This document shows positions 54,663-64,000 of a stretch of 64,000 bases of DNA, piece after piece. Below the pieces are notes generated by a model. It made no database searches, was not told the origin of the DNA, and was given only the letters and a program-made list of their open reading frames with translations. The translations under genes and the position numbers were made by a program. Each line of letters opens with the position of its first letter. The stretch's first letter is position 1. Origin of the DNA: Roseateles koreensis (lineage in GTDB: Bacteria > Pseudomonadota > Gammaproteobacteria > Burkholderiales > Burkholderiaceae_C); NCBI RefSeq assembly GCF_028595305.1, contig NZ_JAQQXS010000008.1, positions 124,001 through 188,000 of the forward strand. Reading direction: 5' to 3'.

Positions 54663-55883
54663 TTGAAGGACGCGCGACGCCAAAGAAAAAGCTGGCTGGA
54701 TGGCTTCATGGCCTATGCCTGGCCCCTGGGCCTGAATGAAGCCCAACTGCGCGAACACATCATGCAGCTCGACCAGCGCCTCTACGGGCTTTGGGATCTG
54801 GGCCAGAACCTGGTGTACGGCTGGGCCCCGGCGCCTCACGGCTTGCGGCTTATTGTGGCCCCCCATGTGTTGTTGACAGAGTTTGTGCACGGCGGCGGGC
54901 ATGCCCAGACCCCAGAAGAACGCGCACGGCGCGCTCATCTGCTGGATGCCGTGCTGGCGGAGCCGGGGCCCCTGCCCGACGCGCAGCTTGACGCGCTGGC
55001 GGCTGAGTTTGGCCTCGAGCCGCTGGCGCTGGCCCTGCCTTTCGCGCCGGAGAAGGGGCTGGGCCTGGAACTGCTGGCCGCTATCGTTGCGCGTTATGGC
55101 ATTCGGCTGGTGGAAGACCGGGCGGTCATTTTGCTCGACACCGTGGGGTTTTCATTGCTGACGCCCTTGCAGCAAGTGGTGCAGCTGGCGAGTTTGTCGT
55201 GCTCGGTCAATGCGGCCTATGCGAAGCTGCTGGACCGCGAAATCAATATCAACTTTGCGCGGACCACCACGGGTGACGGTTTTTATATCTGGAACCGCAT
55301 GCGTGGCATCGAAGCCAATGTGGAGCTGTATCAGCTGCTGCAATTCATTCTGGCCGACAACGCATTGGCGCGTGAACGGGCCTTGCGACCCGAGTCGGTG
55401 CCGCGTCTGCGGGCGGGCTTTCATGTGGGCTCACATTACGAGTTCTATCAATCCGAAGGGCTCAATCCCACCTCATTCAGCTACTTGGTCGGGCAAGTCA
55501 CCATTGAGCTGGCGCGCATGCTGGACCGTGCCCTGCCCGGTCAGATCCTGGTGGGCAAATTCAACACCGTGATGCATGAGCAGACGGGCGGAGTCAGCCG
55601 CCGTGTGAACAGCATGGACTTCGTTGATCGCGCCCGGCACCCGCTCAAGCAACTCGGTGGGTTGGCCCTAGGCGGAGCCGAAATCGATGAAATCGCCTGT
55701 TACCTGACCGGCCGCCGCGACGCACAAGAGCAATTCGGCGTCAGCGAATTTGAGATCAATGACAAGCATGGTTTGGCGCATCGGGTCTACAACGCCAAGA
55801 TCAACATCCATCGCCGCCACGGCGAACCGATATATCTGGGTCTGCGAGAAGAAGATTTGCAAAGTTTTGCTGCGCCCTTGTAA
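54663..55883 (+). CDS. Protein with class III nucleotidyl-cyclase-like domain
   Basis: A 406-residue protein; start TTG 54663 (GGAG eight bases upstream), with ATG 54711 as alternative. The first 150 residues are unrecognised, with no signal peptide. The C-terminal part shows cyclase-like metal segments: ILLDTVGFSLLTPLQQV with the first Asp, and RTTTGDGFYIWNRMRG with the second. The NxxxR transition-state pair seen in active cyclases is not evident; NPTSFSYLVGQVTIELARML replaces it. It may be a degenerate or regulatory cyclase, and it precedes a canonical cyclase-domain gene. Confidence 0.7.
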   Translation: MKDARRQRKSWLDGFMAYAWPLGLNEAQLREHIMQLDQRLYGLWDLGQNLVYGWAPAPHGLRLIVAPHVLLTEFVHGGGHAQTPEERARRAHLLDAVLAEPGPLPDAQLDALAAEFGLEPLALALPFAPEKGLGLELLAAIVARYGIRLVEDRAVILLDTVGFSLLTPLQQVVQLASLSCSVNAAYAKLLDREININFARTTTGDGFYIWNRMRGIEANVELYQLLQFILADNALARERALRPESVPRLRAGFHVGSHYEFYQSEGLNPTSFSYLVGQVTIELARMLDRALPGQILVGKFNTVMHEQTGGVSRRVNSMDFVDRARHPLKQLGGLALGGAEIDEIACYLTGRRDAQEQFGVSEFEINDKHGLAHRVYNAKINIHRRHGEPIYLGLREEDLQSFAAPL

Positions 55884-55981: not shown

Positions 55982-56014
55982 TGGAATTAAAAAAACTAGA
56001 ACTGGGGCTTGACT

Positions 56015-59000
56015 GTGCAGTCCGATTTCAAGCCAGAGGCGAAAGCCTCGGGCCAGCGACGCAATTTGACGCTGCTGTTTGTTGATTTGTCCGAATCGAC
56101 ACGCTTGGCGGAAGCCATGGAGGCGGAGGATTACGCCCTGATGCTGGCTGAGTTGCGCCAGCTCTACCAGAGCGCGGTGGCCCGTCAGGGCGGCACGGTC
56201 GTGCGCATCCAGGGCGATGGCATGTTGGCCATCTTCGGCCATCCTCAGGCCGATGAAGAAGACGGGCGCCGCGCGGCCACGGCCGCGCTTGAGTTGCATG
56301 AAGCGGTGCGCTCGATGCGCCCGCCCTCGGGCCAGCCCTATTGGCCCCACCGCCAAGTCTTGACCCTGCACTCGGGCATTCATGCTGGCATGGTGCTGAT
56401 GGAGGCCGGCGACGAGGTGCGCGGCCGCTTCGAGTTGCTGGGCAACGTGCCCAATATCGCGGCTCGCCTGTGCGACGCGGCGGGGCCGGACGAAATCGTG
56501 GTCAGCGAATCCAGCCTGGGATTGCACTGCCATTTCTTTCAGGTGAGCGAGCGCCGGGCCTTGTTGGTCAAAGGCAGGGGGACGCCGCTGTCGGTCGTCA
56601 ACATACTCGGCCGGGCAGCCATCACCCGCCGTTTCGAGGCCAGCCAGCAGCGCGGCCTCGCGCCATTTGTGGGCCGGGGGGCTGAGTTGAATCTGCTGGA
56701 GCAAGCCCTGGCGGCGGCCAGCCATGGCCGACCCCGTTGGATCAGCGTGCAAGCGGGGCCCGGCTTGGGCAAGACCCGTTTGACCGAAGAATTTTTGCAG
56801 CGCGCGATGGACGAAAACTGCCAAATCCATCGCGGTTATTGTGAAAGCCATCTCAGCGCCGAGCCACTGCAGCCCTATCTGCAAATGCTCCGCACCCTGC
56901 AGGCCATGGGCTGCGCGGACGTCGACAAGATCATGCAGCTGCCGCCGAAGTCGCGAGCGGATGCCGTGTTGGCCTACTTTTTAAGCCAAGCCGAGCGACA
57001 GCCCCAATTGCTCTTCATCGACGACCTGCATTGGGCGGACGACGCGAGCCTGGCCCTGCTGCATCGCCTGCGCGGGGCGGCCTTGCAGGCACGCCTGCCG
57101 GTGTTTCTGCTCACGGCCAGCCGCCCGCTGGAGCAAGGTTCGATGGCTGCCATGCCTGAGCTTCTCAGCACAGCCAATGCGCCGCTCCAAGAAGATGTGC
57201 AGGTGTGTGAACTGCAGCCTTTCAATCTCCAGGAAGCCCGTGCCGCCACCGCACAGTTGCTGCCCCGGGTGGATCCATTCTGGGCCTTGGAGATTCAGCG
57301 TCACGCCGGCGGAAACCCCCTGTTCATCGAGGAGCTGTGCCACGCCCTCGCCCATCAGGGAGACGATCAAGATGCCGCCCGCAACTTCGGCGCCTTTGTG
57401 GCCAAAGTGACGCCGGCTGGTGCCACGGCGGCCAGTCCGCTGGGCAGTGGCAGTGCCTGGTTGTCGGCCCTGGTTGAATCACGGGTGGCACGCTTGCTGC
57501 CCGAAGAGGCCGAACTCTTGCGCATTGCCGCGGTGATCGGTAACGTGATCCCGTCGTGGCTGCTGCACCGTTTGACGGGCTGTGATGAAGACCACCCGGC
57601 GGTGCGCAGTCTGGCCGCGCAAGACTTCGTGTTTCCTGCGCAGCGGCAAGGCTATCTCCGTTTCAAACACGGCATCGCACGCGACGTGGTCTACGAGTCC
57701 ACCGGCATGCAGAGCCGCCAGGCCCTGCACCACCGCATCTTGTCGGAGCTGCACGAGCGCAGCCAGGCGGGCGAAGAACCCGCCCATGAATTGCTGGCCT
57801 ATCACAGCCGAGCCGCGCGCCAATGGGAGGCCGCCGCGCGCCACGCCGAACAAGCCGGTGATCTCGCCCTTGCTGGCTCCGCGCTGGACCGCGCCAAACA
57901 ACAGTACCGCGCTGTGCTGGAGGCGTTGGAGCATTTGCCGCCCAGCGACGACATTGCGTTGCGCTGGATCTCCATCGCCCAGCGCTTTGGCATGGCCTGC
58001 GTTTTTGACGCGTCAGTGGCCGATTTGCGTGTGCTGCAACATGCCGCCAAATTGGCGCAAATGAGCGGCGACCGCGAGCTGATTGCCCGTGCCGAGTACT
58101 GGATGGGTTATGTCAGCTACGCGCTGGGGCAATCCCGGTCAGGCGCCTTGCATTGCGAGAACGGTCTGACGGCTTCCCTACACGGTGTCGACGAGGCGCT
58201 GACGGCGCAACTGAGCGGCGCTTTGGGGCAGATCCGTGCCGCCGCAGCCGACTATGCGTCGGCCCTCGAATTGTTGGATCAGGCCATTGCCTTTCAGCGC
58301 CCGCGTCAGCGCCCAGGGCGGGCGCCCATCGGGCTGGCTTATTCGCTGGCGTGCCGGGCCTATGTGCTGGGCGACCAGGGCGATTTCAAAAGCGCGCATG
58401 AAGCCTTTGAAGAGGCCTTGTCCGGCATCCTGGGCAGCAACCATGCCGTCGAGGCCTCGATCCAGGGCTGGCGTGCCGCCGTGCTGCTCTGGCAAGGGCG
58501 TTGGGCTGAGGCGCAGGTTTGCGGCAGCGAGGCGCGGCGTATCGGCACCCAGGTGCGGAGCTTGTTCACCTGCGCCATGGGCCACGCTGCGCAGGCCTAT
58601 GGCGCCTGGAAGATGACGGGCTCCGAAGCTGCCTGCGACGCCTTGATCAACGCCACCCATTGGCTGACGCCGCGTGGCGGCGGCTTGTTCAACTCGCTCA
58701 ATCATGGCTGGTTGGCCGAGATCAGCGCCGGGCGCGGGGAGTTTGCAAAGGCGCGGCACCATCAGGCCGAAGCGCTCATGCGCGCGCGCAGCAATGATTT
58801 GATTGGCGTGGCCATGGCCCATCGCGCCGGTGCGCGGGTGGCTGCGCAGATGGGCCGTGCGGTGCATGTAAAACGTTATCTCGACAGCGCTTTCCGGGTG
58901 GCGGAGCGCCGCCAATCCTTGCATGAGCAGGCCGTGACCTGGCTTTGCAGTGCGGAGCTCGCGGCCGTACCAGGGGGGGCATCGGGTGCAGCTTCGGGGC

Positions 59001-59101
59001 GCGACGCGCAGCGTGATCTGGACGCTGCAGAGCGCGCCTTCGAGCGCATGGGCATGAGCTGGCACCTGGGTGAAGTCGCCCGTTTGCGCCAGCGGGGCTG
59101 A
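56015..59101 (+). CDS. Class III adenylate cyclase-AAA ATPase-TPR signalling protein
   Basis: A protein of about 1028 residues; GTG 56015 has GGGG seven bases upstream, and a TTG at 56009 is the alternative. Residues 15-180 form a class III cyclase domain: TLLFVDLSESTRL and RIQGDGMLAIFGHPQ carry the metal Asp residues, and GNVPNIAARLCDAAG keeps the Asn-Arg pair. An AAA/STAND-type ATPase follows (Walker A QAGPGLGKTRLTEEF, Walker B LLFIDDLHWADDASL). The C-terminal half is Ala-rich helical repeat, probably TPR. This layout suggests ligand-gated cyclase or scaffold signalling. Confidence 0.9.
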   Translation: MQSDFKPEAKASGQRRNLTLLFVDLSESTRLAEAMEAEDYALMLAELRQLYQSAVARQGGTVVRIQGDGMLAIFGHPQADEEDGRRAATAALELHEAVRSMRPPSGQPYWPHRQVLTLHSGIHAGMVLMEAGDEVRGRFELLGNVPNIAARLCDAAGPDEIVVSESSLGLHCHFFQVSERRALLVKGRGTPLSVVNILGRAAITRRFEASQQRGLAPFVGRGAELNLLEQALAAASHGRPRWISVQAGPGLGKTRLTEEFLQRAMDENCQIHRGYCESHLSAEPLQPYLQMLRTLQAMGCADVDKIMQLPPKSRADAVLAYFLSQAERQPQLLFIDDLHWADDASLALLHRLRGAALQARLPVFLLTASRPLEQGSMAAMPELLSTANAPLQEDVQVCELQPFNLQEARAATAQLLPRVDPFWALEIQRHAGGNPLFIEELCHALAHQGDDQDAARNFGAFVAKVTPAGATAASPLGSGSAWLSALVESRVARLLPEEAELLRIAAVIGNVIPSWLLHRLTGCDEDHPAVRSLAAQDFVFPAQRQGYLRFKHGIARDVVYESTGMQSRQALHHRILSELHERSQAGEEPAHELLAYHSRAARQWEAAARHAEQAGDLALAGSALDRAKQQYRAVLEALEHLPPSDDIALRWISIAQRFGMACVFDASVADLRVLQHAAKLAQMSGDRELIARAEYWMGYVSYALGQSRSGALHCENGLTASLHGVDEALTAQLSGALGQIRAAAADYASALELLDQAIAFQRPRQRPGRAPIGLAYSLACRAYVLGDQGDFKSAHEAFEEALSGILGSNHAVEASIQGWRAAVLLWQGRWAEAQVCGSEARRIGTQVRSLFTCAMGHAAQAYGAWKMTGSEAACDALINATHWLTPRGGGLFNSLNHGWLAEISAGRGEFAKARHHQAEALMRARSNDLIGVAMAHRAGARVAAQMGRAVHVKRYLDSAFRVAERRQSLHEQAVTWLCSAELAAVPGGASGAASGRDAQRDLDAAERAFERMGMSWHLGEVARLRQRG

Positions 59102-59294: not shown

Positions 59295-60311
59295 ATGACC
59301 CTCAATCGTCGACAACTCATCATCCAGGGCACTGGCGCGCTCGTGCTGCCCGCCCTGACCATTCCCAAGGCGTTTGCCGCCGCGGAATTCACCTTCAAAT
59401 ACGGCAATAACCTGCCGGTGACGCACCCGATGAATGTGCGTGCCGCCGAAATGGCCGCCGCCATCAATGCCGAGTCAAAAGGGCGCATCGATTTTCAGGT
59501 CTACCCCAACAATCAGTTGGGCAACGACACCGACATGCTGTCGCAGGTACGCTCGGGCGCGCTGGATTTCTTGAGCTTCTCGCCACTGATTCTTGGCACG
59601 CTGGTGCCGGCAGCCCAGATCAGCGGTGTCGGGTTTGCGTTCAAGGACTATGGCCAAGTGTGGGGCGCGATGGACGGCGAGTTGGGCGCGCATGTGCGCC
59701 GCCAGATCGCCGCGTCCAGCAGCCTCTTCGCGTTTGAAAAAATCTGGGACAACGGCTACCGTCAGGTGACCACCAGCACGACCGCCATCAACAAGCCGGA
59801 AGACTTGAAGGGCTTGAAGATCCGCATCCCGCCCAGCCCGTTCTGGGTGTCCATGTTCAAGGCCTTCGAGGCGTCGCCGCAGACCATCAACTTCGCTGAG
59901 GTGTACTCCGCCTTGCAGACCAAGGTCGCTGACGCGCAGGAGAACCCGCTGGCCGTCATCGCCACCGCCAAGCTCAACGAGGTGCAAAAGTACTGCTCGC
60001 TCACCAATCACATGTGGGACGGCTTTTGGGTGCTGGGCAACAAGAAGTCTTTCGACCGCCTGCCGCAGGATTTGAAGGATTTGGTCTCCCGCCATATCAA
60101 TGCCGCCGGCATGAAGCAGCGCGAGGATGTGAAGAAGCTCAACGATTCCCTGCAGGCCGATCTCAAAGCCAAGGGCATGGTCTTCAACGGCACCGACGCC
60201 GAGCTGTTCCGCAACAAGCTGCGCGCTGCGGGCTTTTATGCCGATTGGCACAAGAAATTTGGCGCTGAAGCCTGGGCGCTGCTGGAGAAGTACACGGGCA
60301 AGCTGGTATGA
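59295..60311 (+). CDS. dctP: TRAP transporter solute-binding protein (DctP family)
   Basis: A 338-residue periplasmic receptor. The N-terminus MTLNRRQLIIQGTGALVLPA has a twin-arginine and hydrophobic run, so Tat export is possible. The DctP fold is shown by NQLGNDTDMLSQVRSGALDF, DLKGLKIRIPPSPFWVSMFK (with the Arg that binds the substrate carboxylate) and FAEVYSALQTKVADAQENP. It captures an organic acid for the membrane subunits encoded next, whose ATG overlaps its stop by four bases. Confidence 0.95.
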   Translation: MTLNRRQLIIQGTGALVLPALTIPKAFAAAEFTFKYGNNLPVTHPMNVRAAEMAAAINAESKGRIDFQVYPNNQLGNDTDMLSQVRSGALDFLSFSPLILGTLVPAAQISGVGFAFKDYGQVWGAMDGELGAHVRRQIAASSSLFAFEKIWDNGYRQVTTSTTAINKPEDLKGLKIRIPPSPFWVSMFKAFEASPQTINFAEVYSALQTKVADAQENPLAVIATAKLNEVQKYCSLTNHMWDGFWVLGNKKSFDRLPQDLKDLVSRHINAAGMKQREDVKKLNDSLQADLKAKGMVFNGTDAELFRNKLRAAGFYADWHKKFGAEAWALLEKYTGKLV

Positions 60312-62164
60312 GTTCAGGGGTCGGGGTCGCGGTGGCCCCACAGGGATGGCTGACCCGCCTGGAGACGGGCTTGGGCTGGCTGGTGGAGGTGCCGGCGGCT
60401 TTGCTGGTGCTGGCCGATATCCTCGTGCTGTTTGCCGGTGTGGTGGCACGTTATGTCTTGCACGACCCCTTGCTGTGGTCGGACGAGCTGGCGTCCATCT
60501 TGTTCTTGTGGCTGGCGATGTTGGGGTCGGTAGTGGCCTTGCGGCGCGGCGAGCACATGCGCATGACGGCATGGGTTGGCCGTGCGGCCCCCGCGCGCCG
60601 GGCGCAGCTGGAGCTGCTGGCCACCTTTGCTTGTCTGGCCTTTCTTGCCCTGGTCGCGGCACCCGCGTGGGAATACGCGGCCGATGAGCAGGCCATCACC
60701 ACGCCGGCGCTGGAAATCTCCAATCTGTGGCGGGCCGCGGCCCTGCCTGTGGGCATTGGCTTGATGGGCTTGTTCGCGGTGCTGCGGCTGGCGCGTAGTG
60801 GCACGGTGGGGCAACGGCTCAAAGTGGCGGTGGCTTTGGCGGCGGTCATCGGCCTGTTCTGGTGGGCTGGCCCGGTTCTGGCGCCGCTGGGCCGCTGGAA
60901 TTTGCTGATCTTTTTTGTCGGGGTGGCGGGCGGCTGCGTGCTTGCCGGCATTCCGATTGCCTTTGCCTTTGGGCTGGCGACGTTTGGTTATCTGGCTTTG
61001 ACGACGCAAACGCCGATGATGGCGCTGGTGGGTCGCATGGATGAAGGCATGTCGCACCTGATCCTGCTGGCCGTGCCCTTGTTTGTGTTTTTGGGCCTGC
61101 TGATCGAAATGACCGGCATGGCGCGCGCCATGATTGCATTTCTCGCCGCGTTGCTGGGGCATGTGCGGGGTGGGTTGTCCTATGTGCTGGTGGGGGCGAT
61201 GTATCTGGTCTCGGGGATTTCAGGCTCCAAGGCGGCGGATATGGCGGCCATCGCGCCGGCGTTGTTCCCTGAGATGAAGGCACGCGGCGCCAGGCCCGGC
61301 GATCTGGTGGCCTTGCTGGCCGCCACCGGGGCGCAGACCGAGACGGTGCCGCCCAGCCTGGTGTTGATCACCATCGGTTCGGTCACGGGGGTGTCGATCG
61401 CCGCACTGTTCACCGGCGGCCTGCTGCCGGCCCTGGTGCTGGGTGCTTTGCTGTGCGCCGTGGTGTGGCACCGCTACCAGGGCGAGGATTTGAGCGGCGT
61501 GCAGCGCCGGCCGCGCGCCGAAGTGTTCAAGCTGTTCTTGATCGCCCTGCCGGCGCTGGCCTTGCCCTTTGTGATCCGGGCCGCCGTGGTGCAGGGCGTG
61601 GCCACCGCCACCGAGGTATCCACATTGGGCATTGCCTACGCGGTGCTGGCTGGCTTGTTGATCTACCGGCAGTTCGACCTGAGGCGCCTGCTGCCCATGC
61701 TGGTGGATACCGCGGCATTGTCGGGCGCCATTTTGTTGATCATCGGCACGGCCACGGGCATGGCCTGGGGGCTCACGCAGTCGGGTTTCTCACGCTGGCT
61801 GGCGCAGTCCATGGCGGCCTTGCCCGGGGGAGCGCCCATGTTCATGGCAGTGTCGGTGCTGGCCTTTGTGGTGCTGGGCTCGGTGCTGGAGGGCATTCCG
61901 GCCATCGTGCTGTTCGGGCCCTTGTTGTTTCCGATCGCACGGCAATTGGGCATCCACGAGGTGCACTACGCCATGGTGGTGGTGCTCTCCATGGGCCTGG
62001 GCCTCTTCGCGCCACCTTTGGGCGTGGGCTATTACGCCGCCTGTGCCATCGGGCGCGTCAGCCCCGATTTGGGCTTGCGCCCCATCGTGGGCTACCTGGC
62101 CGCCCTGCTGGTGGGCGTTGTCGTTGTGGCGGCCGTGCCCTGGATTTCGATCGGGTTTTTGTGA
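60308..62164 (+). CDS. TRAP transporter fused small and large permease (DctQM)
   Basis: A 618-residue fusion: residues 1-170 are the four-helix DctQ part (LWSDELASILFLWLAMLGSV), and residues 195-618 are the DctM part (IPIAFAFGLATFGYLAL, GISGSKAADMAAIAPALFPE, GLGLFAPPLGVGYYAACAIG). The large subunit carries Na+ and the substrate; the small one supports the complex. The fusion removes the need for a separate dctQ gene. It is coupled to dctP and converges with the peroxidase-P450 gene, one base away. Confidence 0.94.
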   Translation: MSSGVGVAVAPQGWLTRLETGLGWLVEVPAALLVLADILVLFAGVVARYVLHDPLLWSDELASILFLWLAMLGSVVALRRGEHMRMTAWVGRAAPARRAQLELLATFACLAFLALVAAPAWEYAADEQAITTPALEISNLWRAAALPVGIGLMGLFAVLRLARSGTVGQRLKVAVALAAVIGLFWWAGPVLAPLGRWNLLIFFVGVAGGCVLAGIPIAFAFGLATFGYLALTTQTPMMALVGRMDEGMSHLILLAVPLFVFLGLLIEMTGMARAMIAFLAALLGHVRGGLSYVLVGAMYLVSGISGSKAADMAAIAPALFPEMKARGARPGDLVALLAATGAQTETVPPSLVLITIGSVTGVSIAALFTGGLLPALVLGALLCAVVWHRYQGEDLSGVQRRPRAEVFKLFLIALPALALPFVIRAAVVQGVATATEVSTLGIAYAVLAGLLIYRQFDLRRLLPMLVDTAALSGAILLIIGTATGMAWGLTQSGFSRWLAQSMAALPGGAPMFMAVSVLAFVVLGSVLEGIPAIVLFGPLLFPIARQLGIHEVHYAMVVVLSMGLGLFAPPLGVGYYAACAIGRVSPDLGLRPIVGYLAALLVGVVVVAAVPWISIGFL

Positions 62165-62165
62165 C

Positions 62166-64000
62166 TCAGGTCTGCACGGCCAGCACCGTGGGTGAGCCCG
62201 TATAGCGCAAGGTGCCGGCCTCCAGCACGCCTGCGATCACGCCCATCATCACGCCGATGGCCATGGCGTAGCCGGGGCAGGCGTGCAGGGGAGCGGGTTT
62301 GACGGGGTCGTGGCGATCGCCGCCGAACATGGGGTAATGCTCGCCGGGGCTTTGCTGCGTGGCTGAGCCGATGCCGACGATCACTGTGTCGCCCGTGTCC
62401 AGCGCGAGCGGCCCGAGTGAATGGGGCTTGCGCACCTTGCGCCACACGGCGCCGGGCACGGGCCGCCCCACCATGGTGGCAATCAAGGCGGGGCGCAAGA
62501 CGGCCACAGCCTGTTGATGAACTTGCGCGGCGGCTGCGTCCGGGCTGTGGTGGGGCCAGGCTTGCTGAAAATCCCACAGCTTGCGGCTCACCACCCAGGC
62601 GCCCAGGGTGGACAAGGTGTTGCCGTGTACCGTGGGTGGGAAGCCCAGCATGATGCCGGCGATGGTGCGGGGAACGATGTCGGCATCGGCACCACTCATA
62701 CCGTGCAGGGCCGCCCGTATGGCCTCGCTCAGCACTGGCAACGGGGCGCCCGCAGGTTGATTGGCCAGCCATTGGCGAACAGCGGCGAACAGTGCCTGCC
62801 CAGTCTGCGGCGCTACCTGTTGAACCACGTCGTTAGGGTGAGGGCCAAACACAAACCGGGACACCGCTAGAAAGCCCTGCGGGCAGCGCGGCGCCTTGGC
62901 TAGGCCGGCGGCATGCCACTCCATGCCCCACATGTGCAGGCCATCGGGCAGGCCAAACCAGGTTGTGCACAGCGCCGCCAGCACTTGCTCGGACAACTGC
63001 TCCATGTCCAGCAACGCTTCTTTCAACTGCAATTGCCGTGCTCCGGCGAGCACGTGGCCCACCACGGTGTTGGCCACGCTGCGCGCCAGGGTGAAGGCGG
63101 TGCCTTCGTCGATGGCTTCGATGGCCGCGTTGATCAACGGTGCCTGCTCGCGGTGGCCCGTGTCTTCGTCCATGCCGAGATAGCCGCGCCCGATGGACGC
63201 TGCCATGCGCTCGCCGTACCCGCTGACCGAGTAGCGGGCATCCGGGTCGCGGAACACCTCGCACACTCGCGCCGCCTCGCCCACCAGCACGCCATAGGCC
63301 GTGCGCAGCACCCCACCGGGCTGGCTGCGCACATAGGCCCAGGCCGCGTCGTGGGTGGCCGGGTCTTCCAGCCATTGCTGCCAGGCGGCGAAGTTGTCGA
63401 GATCGGGCGCAGCCATGGGCGTGGCGATGGAGGCGGGAAAGGTCGGCAACTCAACCCAAGCCGGCAATTGCCGCAGCGCTGTCATCGCTGGTACGAAGAA
63501 GTACGCCCCCCACTGCAGTTCGACAAAAGGCTGATCGCCCAGGTTCAGATGAATCGGCTTGCCTTCATGTTCGAAGCGGAACACGCGCGGCGCAGCGCCG
63601 GGCAGGCGGTCGGTTGCGGGCGTCTTGGGCACTGCCACGCCAAGAAAGGGGTCGGACTGGCCGGCATAGCCGCCGCTGCTGTTGCCGCCGGCAATCCAGC
63701 GCTGCACGGTTTCAAACTGCTCGGCCAGATTGGCGTTGTAGGCCATGAAGACCAAGCCCCGGTCCGCTTCGTCTTGCGTGTCCTCCTGGCCGCCCTGCTG
63801 ATAGGCCGGGCCGTAGGACATGCCGCGCCGCAGCAGTCGGGGGACGGCCGGTGCCTTGATCGGATCTGTGCGTGGGTTGGCGCGGCGGATATGGGCGTGG
63901 AAGGGGCACTTTGCGCCTTGCTTGTCGTCGGCATAACTGAAGGTATTGGCGGCGCCGATTTCAGGCGCAGCAAGGGGGCGGCCGTCGGGCCAGCGGCCCA
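62166..64000 (-). CDS. DyP-type peroxidase fused to a P450-like domain (partial)
   Basis: The reading frame enters from beyond base 64000, so only the last 610 residues are visible. Residues 1-180 are the DyP C-terminal part: CPFHAHIRRANPR with the haem-ligand His (codon 63891-63893), LLRRGMSYG with the distal Arg, and the family end LQWGAYFFVPAMTALR. Residues 200-610 resemble a cytochrome P450: IAGIMLGFPPTVHGN where the I-helix lies, and the haem-thiolate loop APLHACPGYAMAIG (Cys codon 62277-62279). The usual ExxR and I-helix acid-Thr motifs are not evident. The apparent start at 63821 is internal. Confidence 0.85.
   Translation of the reverse strand, partial: GRWPDGRPLAAPEIGAANTFSYADDKQGAKCPFHAHIRRANPRTDPIKAPAVPRLLRRGMSYGPAYQQGGQEDTQDEADRGLVFMAYNANLAEQFETVQRWIAGGNSSGGYAGQSDPFLGVAVPKTPATDRLPGAAPRVFRFEHEGKPIHLNLGDQPFVELQWGAYFFVPAMTALRQLPAWVELPTFPASIATPMAAPDLDNFAAWQQWLEDPATHDAAWAYVRSQPGGVLRTAYGVLVGEAARVCEVFRDPDARYSVSGYGERMAASIGRGYLGMDEDTGHREQAPLINAAIEAIDEGTAFTLARSVANTVVGHVLAGARQLQLKEALLDMEQLSEQVLAALCTTWFGLPDGLHMWGMEWHAAGLAKAPRCPQGFLAVSRFVFGPHPNDVVQQVAPQTGQALFAAVRQWLANQPAGAPLPVLSEAIRAALHGMSGADADIVPRTIAGIMLGFPPTVHGNTLSTLGAWVVSRKLWDFQQAWPHHSPDAAAAQVHQQAVAVLRPALIATMVGRPVPGAVWRKVRKPHSLGPLALDTGDTVIVGIGSATQQSPGEHYPMFGGDRHDPVKPAPLHACPGYAMAIGVMMGVIAGVLEAGTLRYTGSPTVLAVQT

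Follow-up and report, generated by a model that had tools for sequence, protein, structure and literature searches.

A conserved bacterial gene joining a DyP peroxidase to a divergent P450-fold domain, possibly acting on lipid hydroperoxides

The minus-strand gene at the end of the 64,000-nucleotide stretch of Roseateles koreensis DNA analysed here (the window) is a real, conserved bacterial gene that fuses a DyP peroxidase to a P450-like domain. With a probability of about 0.5, we propose that its product is a multidomain enzyme of the cytoplasm acting on lipid hydroperoxides, which are probably fatty-acyl ones, and that its P450 part would be driven by peroxide rather than by O2. The features on which this proposal draws are collected in Table 1.

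Table 1. Positions of the fusion gene, its domains and motifs, and a neighbouring gene (window coordinates)
Feature	Position	Strand	Evidence or remark
Fusion gene, part within the window	62166..64000	-	Open frame, cut by the window end
P450-fold domain, residues 835-1246	62169..63404	-	AlphaFold, VIA, hhalign
Putative haem thiolate ligand, Cys1210 in HACPG	62277..62279	-	Invariant 32/32; aligns with the Cys of canonical FGxGxHxCxG
K-helix ExxR positions, residues 1143-1146, A..V here	62469..62480	-	E..R pair absent 32/32
I-helix GFPPT, residues 1088-1092, at the monooxygenase acid-Thr place	62631..62645	-	Alignment
DyP domain, C-terminal segments in the window	63447..64000	-	Whole domain residues ~355-820, to window 64844
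GxxDG of DyP	64266-64280, just beyond the window	-	Asp in 27/27
DyP proximal haem His672	63891..63893	-	27/27
DyP distal Arg693/Arg694 (RRGMSYGP)	63825..63830	-	27/27
Class III nucleotide cyclase-like - AAA_16 - TPR protein	56009..59101	+	Pfam; family in 29/32 loci

An earlier note on this DNA, made from the window alone, had placed the DyP and P450-like halves in one frame, and this was confirmed on the genome contig, where the frame runs on past base 64000 without a stop to C34:189906 as a single open reading frame that includes the GxxDG motif. The halves are joined without a stop in more than 30 independent assemblies, including those of Roseateles, Paucibacter, Ideonella, Xenophilus and Variovorax, and an assembly artefact was rejected on this ground. 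The longest open reading frame covers 1246 codons (window 62166-65906, minus strand). The ATG at window 65717, which gives approximately 1183 residues, is the likelier start, as it is preceded by “agggagac” and agrees with the starts of homologues. Three modules make up the protein, an N-terminal domain of approximately 300 amino acids followed by the DyP and P450-fold domains, and no obvious signal peptide was seen by eye.

Of 100 genera sampled in the family, 13 were tallied as having the fusion; the weakest of these matches (G763) is a normal P450, unfused and with the canonical Cys loop. The fusion also occurs in distant proteobacteria, and no match to it was found in phages. A copy on a Sphingopyxis plasmid (L033 7965-10394) begins inside the DyP domain directly after a Tn3 transposase and is thus truncated at its N-terminus, with HACPA in its Cys loop. 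Across eight pairs, dN/dS of the P450 domain was 0.05-0.31, similar to that of the DyP domain, indicating purifying selection; a pseudogene was rejected on these values.

The DyP half is readily recognized. As the earlier note had suggested checking, the fusion protein matches a Pfam DyP profile, Dyp_perox_C (PF20628), at 31.3 bits against a gathering score of 20, with TIGR01413 slightly below its cut-off (95.5 vs 100.5). A single-sequence search of the PDB returned solved DyPs led by the Deinococcus enzyme (E 5.6e-33), and a 10-row profile reached E 3e-65. In addition, residues 305-750 of a modelled relative (L037, mean pLDDT 76) superposed on D. radiodurans DyP with Z 31.9 over 394 aligned residues (rmsd 3.3). 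The GxxDG Asp, haem His and distal Arg are shared by all 27 sequences carrying a DyP domain.

The C-terminal half is far more divergent. The Pfam p450 profile gave zero matches to the window protein and 25 relatives, a result that the earlier note had equated with refutation of a P450 domain; that reading is overridden here by structural and profile-profile evidence. An AlphaFold model of this half (pLDDT 93, pTM 0.92) matched only P450s among the Foldseek hits listed. In VIA-align, 1000 of 1000 compared chains scored at least Z 8, those listed all being P450s, and the best match was P450BioI (Z 32.6, 340 aligned, rmsd 2.5). Comparison by hhalign with the Pfam-recognized P450 of fusions with the reverse domain order, a profile that itself matches solved P450s at 1.6e-26, gave E 2.8e-15 over 320 columns with the I-helix, K-helix and Cys in register. 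Because of these matches, the C-terminal domain is read as a clear but divergent P450 fold, as the earlier note's P450-like domain with a Cys loop implied. Searches of the PDB by sequence profile reach it only faintly: a 4-row profile found only chance matches, and 25 rows were needed for mostly P450 matches, all weak and none significant alone (best E 0.012). CYP74 was absent from the matches of this 25-row profile, which reaches all P450s weakly, and no CYP74 structure was among the fold matches listed.

The catalytic motifs of this domain are altered in a consistent way. The earlier note had seen neither an acid-Thr pair nor a clear ExxR in the window copy, and both absences extend to the family: the acid position holds P, L, V, I or N in 31 sequences, the Thr position is Pro in 30 of 31, and as ExxR is found in 0 of 32 we class the domain no further than as a divergent P450 fold. 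The HACP motif is shared by all 32, with the following Gly replaced by Ala in the Sphingopyxis copy, and haem binding through Cys1210 is putative; occupancy of both domains by haem is predicted. The conserved Phe lies 13-22 residues from the Cys, compared with the usual 7 (16, or +9, in the window copy), and whether this is an insertion in the Cys loop is uncertain because the FGG may be part of the meander. Calling these motifs “eroded”, as the earlier note had done, is misleading, as the altered forms are themselves conserved (GFxPT, HACP, RPxPxxxWR) under purifying selection, which argues for a domain that is specialized rather than decaying.

The N-terminal domain has no Pfam match and no sequence match in the PDB, and a profile comparison with the DyP half was not significant (Prob 6.6). 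By DSSP its order is beta-alpha-beta-beta-alpha, for which “ferredoxin-like” is only a suggestion. This module served as the lead to reversed fusions and to clusters in which the parts are separate genes. In the reversed fusions, found in Alphaproteobacteria (L076, L083-L085, L077), the order is P450, transmembrane segments, relative of the N-terminal module, DyP, in proteins of 1408-1535 residues; examples are Pararhizobium qamdonense WP_276121424.1, Novosphingobium aromaticivorans pNL2 SARO_RS19865 and copies on Sulfitobacter plasmids. Their P450 matches Pfam (E 6.5e-10) and keeps ExxR and the canonical Cys loop, and four of the five genomes have an adjoining gene of the Guanylate_cyc-TPR type.

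In the separate-gene clusters, a relative of the N-terminal module and a DyP are encoded side by side with a catalase-like gene, which was assigned by eye and has no Pfam match. One such cluster has an oleate hydratase nearby (MCRA, E 4.5e-196), and others have c-type cytochrome or RoxA-like genes. These clusters (L075, L078, L079, L081), made up of the module relative, the DyP, the catalase-like gene and genes for a RoxA-like or c-type cytochrome, a GMC oxidoreductase or an oleate hydratase, could represent a wider lipid-peroxide system. In two alphaproteobacterial loci (L055, L060) the P450 domain occurs on its own, with no DyP, and a gene for a RoxA-like di-haem protein is found nearby. The fatty-acid 10S-dioxygenase PA2077 and the diol synthase PA2078 of P. 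aeruginosa are members of the RoxA-like group (PMC4496055).

In order to place the fusion in its genomic context, 32 loci were compared, a few of which duplicate one assembly. A cyclase-AAA-TPR gene lies near the fusion in 29 of them, mostly adjacent and convergent. Both metal Asp residues are retained in the cyclase centre of its product, but Arg, Gln or another residue stands in for the base-selecting Lys, and members of the Xenophilus group lack the Asn/Arg pair; cyclase activity is doubtful because of these changes, and the protein is possibly a non-cyclase sensor. In the window this gene is split from the fusion by TRAP transporter genes (DctP and a fused DctQ-DctM, window 59295-62164), an insertion absent from the other 31 loci. 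A 406-amino-acid protein without a Pfam match (window 54663-55883), which on inspection looks like a class III cyclase that has degenerated, is kept beside the cyclase gene in nine related loci.

Lipases are the most informative partners of the fusion's relatives. An SGNH/GDSL lipase forms a fourth, C-terminal domain in seven relatives (L052, L053, L057, L062/L082, L094, L096, L097), with the hydrolase blocks GDSW, GGND and, mostly, [DN]ExHP, and in L051 the SGNH hydrolase is a separate gene adjoining the fusion. In four independent loci (L044, L046, L049, L050) a patatin-like lipase, in which GxSxG and DGG are kept, is encoded immediately upstream in the same orientation. No lipase gene adjoins the fusion in the window's own lineage, which counts against our proposal. 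It is the association with lipases in relatives that points to a lipid as the substrate and suggests that the fusion probably processes lipid peroxides.

Taken together, we envisage the following mechanism. The DyP peroxidase would form one unit with the module that precedes it, and the P450-fold domain, its O2-activating residues gone, would bind haem through Cys1210. With those residues lost, this domain most likely needs no electron-transfer partners and instead uses the O-O bond of a hydroperoxide, isomerizing it, cleaving it or inserting its oxygen, in the manner of CYP74 and of the P450 halves of fungal Ppo/LDS enzymes. A lipid hydroperoxide would most economically serve it as substrate and oxidant both, which we infer from the lost acid-Thr pair, the lack of any other Pfam P450 in the same genome, and the ties to peroxidase and lipase. 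The acyl chain would be released or trimmed by a lipase, either the SGNH C-terminal fusion or the adjoining patatin, and the cyclase-AAA-TPR neighbour may sense or regulate. The hydroperoxide substrate, its lipid identity, the cytoplasmic location and the regulation are thus all put forward as presumptive.

Several other explanations share part of this evidence. A possible, if rather unlikely, one is that the system repairs or detoxifies lipid peroxides, with the lipase excising oxidized acyl chains and the DyP and P450 domains destroying the hydroperoxide without any signalling product. DyP chemistry uses up peroxide, the P450 half has no O2 machinery and related clusters include catalase-like partners, all as expected for such a role; however, a further haem domain of its own and the conservation of a cyclase-type neighbour seem elaborate for that purpose. 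The earlier note had proposed instead that the DyP half makes a hydroperoxide that the P450 half rearranges, a dioxygenase and isomerase in one chain, by general analogy with the Ppo/LDS enzymes (PMC13049297). This we consider most improbable, since the DyP catalytic residues are ordinary, dioxygenase features are absent and nothing shows dioxygenase chemistry. Peroxide is consumed, not made, by DyP peroxidases, and the RoxA-like di-haem protein present in some related clusters is a better candidate for the peroxide maker.

The loss of the acid-Thr pair, in which Pro has taken the place of Thr, would also fit an H2O2-driven peroxygenase, in which the P450 domain hydroxylates or decarboxylates fatty acids and the DyP buffers H2O2. 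The CYP152 enzymes likewise have Pro at this I-helix position, but theirs is an Arg-Pro pair in which the Arg binds the carboxylate, whereas none of our 31 sequences has Arg at the acid position (P, L, V, I or N), and we regard this explanation as unlikely. Loss of ExxR, of the acid-Thr pair and of Pfam recognition could alternatively mean that the P450-fold domain has no catalytic role and instead binds haem or a ligand to regulate the DyP. Against this stand the Cys invariant in 32 of 32 sequences and the reversed sister fusion, which retains ExxR and a canonical Cys loop, and such a role appears very unlikely. The reading we prefer, peroxide-driven processing of lipid hydroperoxides, also has a more ambitious form: a bacterial one-polypeptide oxylipin factory in which a lipase, a DyP that handles peroxide and a P450 acting as hydroperoxide isomerase are united, evolved independently of fungal Ppo and assembled in two domain orders, whose product is sensed by the cyclase-type regulator. 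This form is doubtful.

Finally, the fusion was compared with known systems. The earlier note knew of no characterized bacterial example, and the open-access PMC papers searched likewise hold none; no published description of a DyP-P450 fusion and no characterization of the reversed P450-module-DyP fusions were found. Databases already name such proteins “Dyp-type peroxidase domain-containing protein” or “cytochrome P450”. The components are known, and what is new to the searches made is that a DyP and a P450 are combined, that ExxR is lost and that a lipase can join them in a trifusion. The reversed fusions resemble ours in their three modules, the I-helix GFxPT and a cyclase-TPR or SARP regulator nearby, and differ in their opposite order, transmembrane segments and retained ExxR and canonical Cys loop. 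The closest solved DyP, that of Deinococcus radiodurans (8re2/8re3), stands alone as a peroxidase, whereas ours is fused. Few physiological roles have been assigned in the DyP family, and we are not aware of any DyP that acts on a fatty acid, which counts against our proposal; if the proposal is true, the family gains a concrete, testable lipid substrate.

Members of the CYP74 clan (allene oxide synthase and hydroperoxide lyase, with proteobacterial members too) require no O2 and no redox partner, and their haem-binding segment is longer by nine residues; like our domain they lack the O2-activation pair and show extended Cys-loop spacing (PMC10813956). Ours differs in its missing ExxR and its fusion to a DyP, and the hydroperoxide chemistry that is CYP74's is only proposed for it. 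The fungal Ppo and linoleate diol synthases, whose CYP halves act on the hydroperoxide made by the partner, share with our fusion two haem domains per chain, a C-terminal P450 and an HxC Cys pocket (PMC13049297). Their partner is a cyclooxygenase-type animal haem peroxidase, whereas ours is a DyP, which sets the fusion apart from them, and ours has in addition a module at its N-terminus, to which some relatives add a lipase. The functional parallel to dioxygenase-P450 enzymes that the earlier note drew is nonetheless supported, and it is strengthened by the lipases fused or adjacent in relatives. Prostaglandin and fungal Ppo pathways follow the logic of letting a haem peroxidase or dioxygenase and a P450 work on the same lipid. 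If our proposal is true, a bacterial DyP with a P450 stripped of its O2 machinery, joined in some relatives by a lipase, would show that this logic has also arisen separately.
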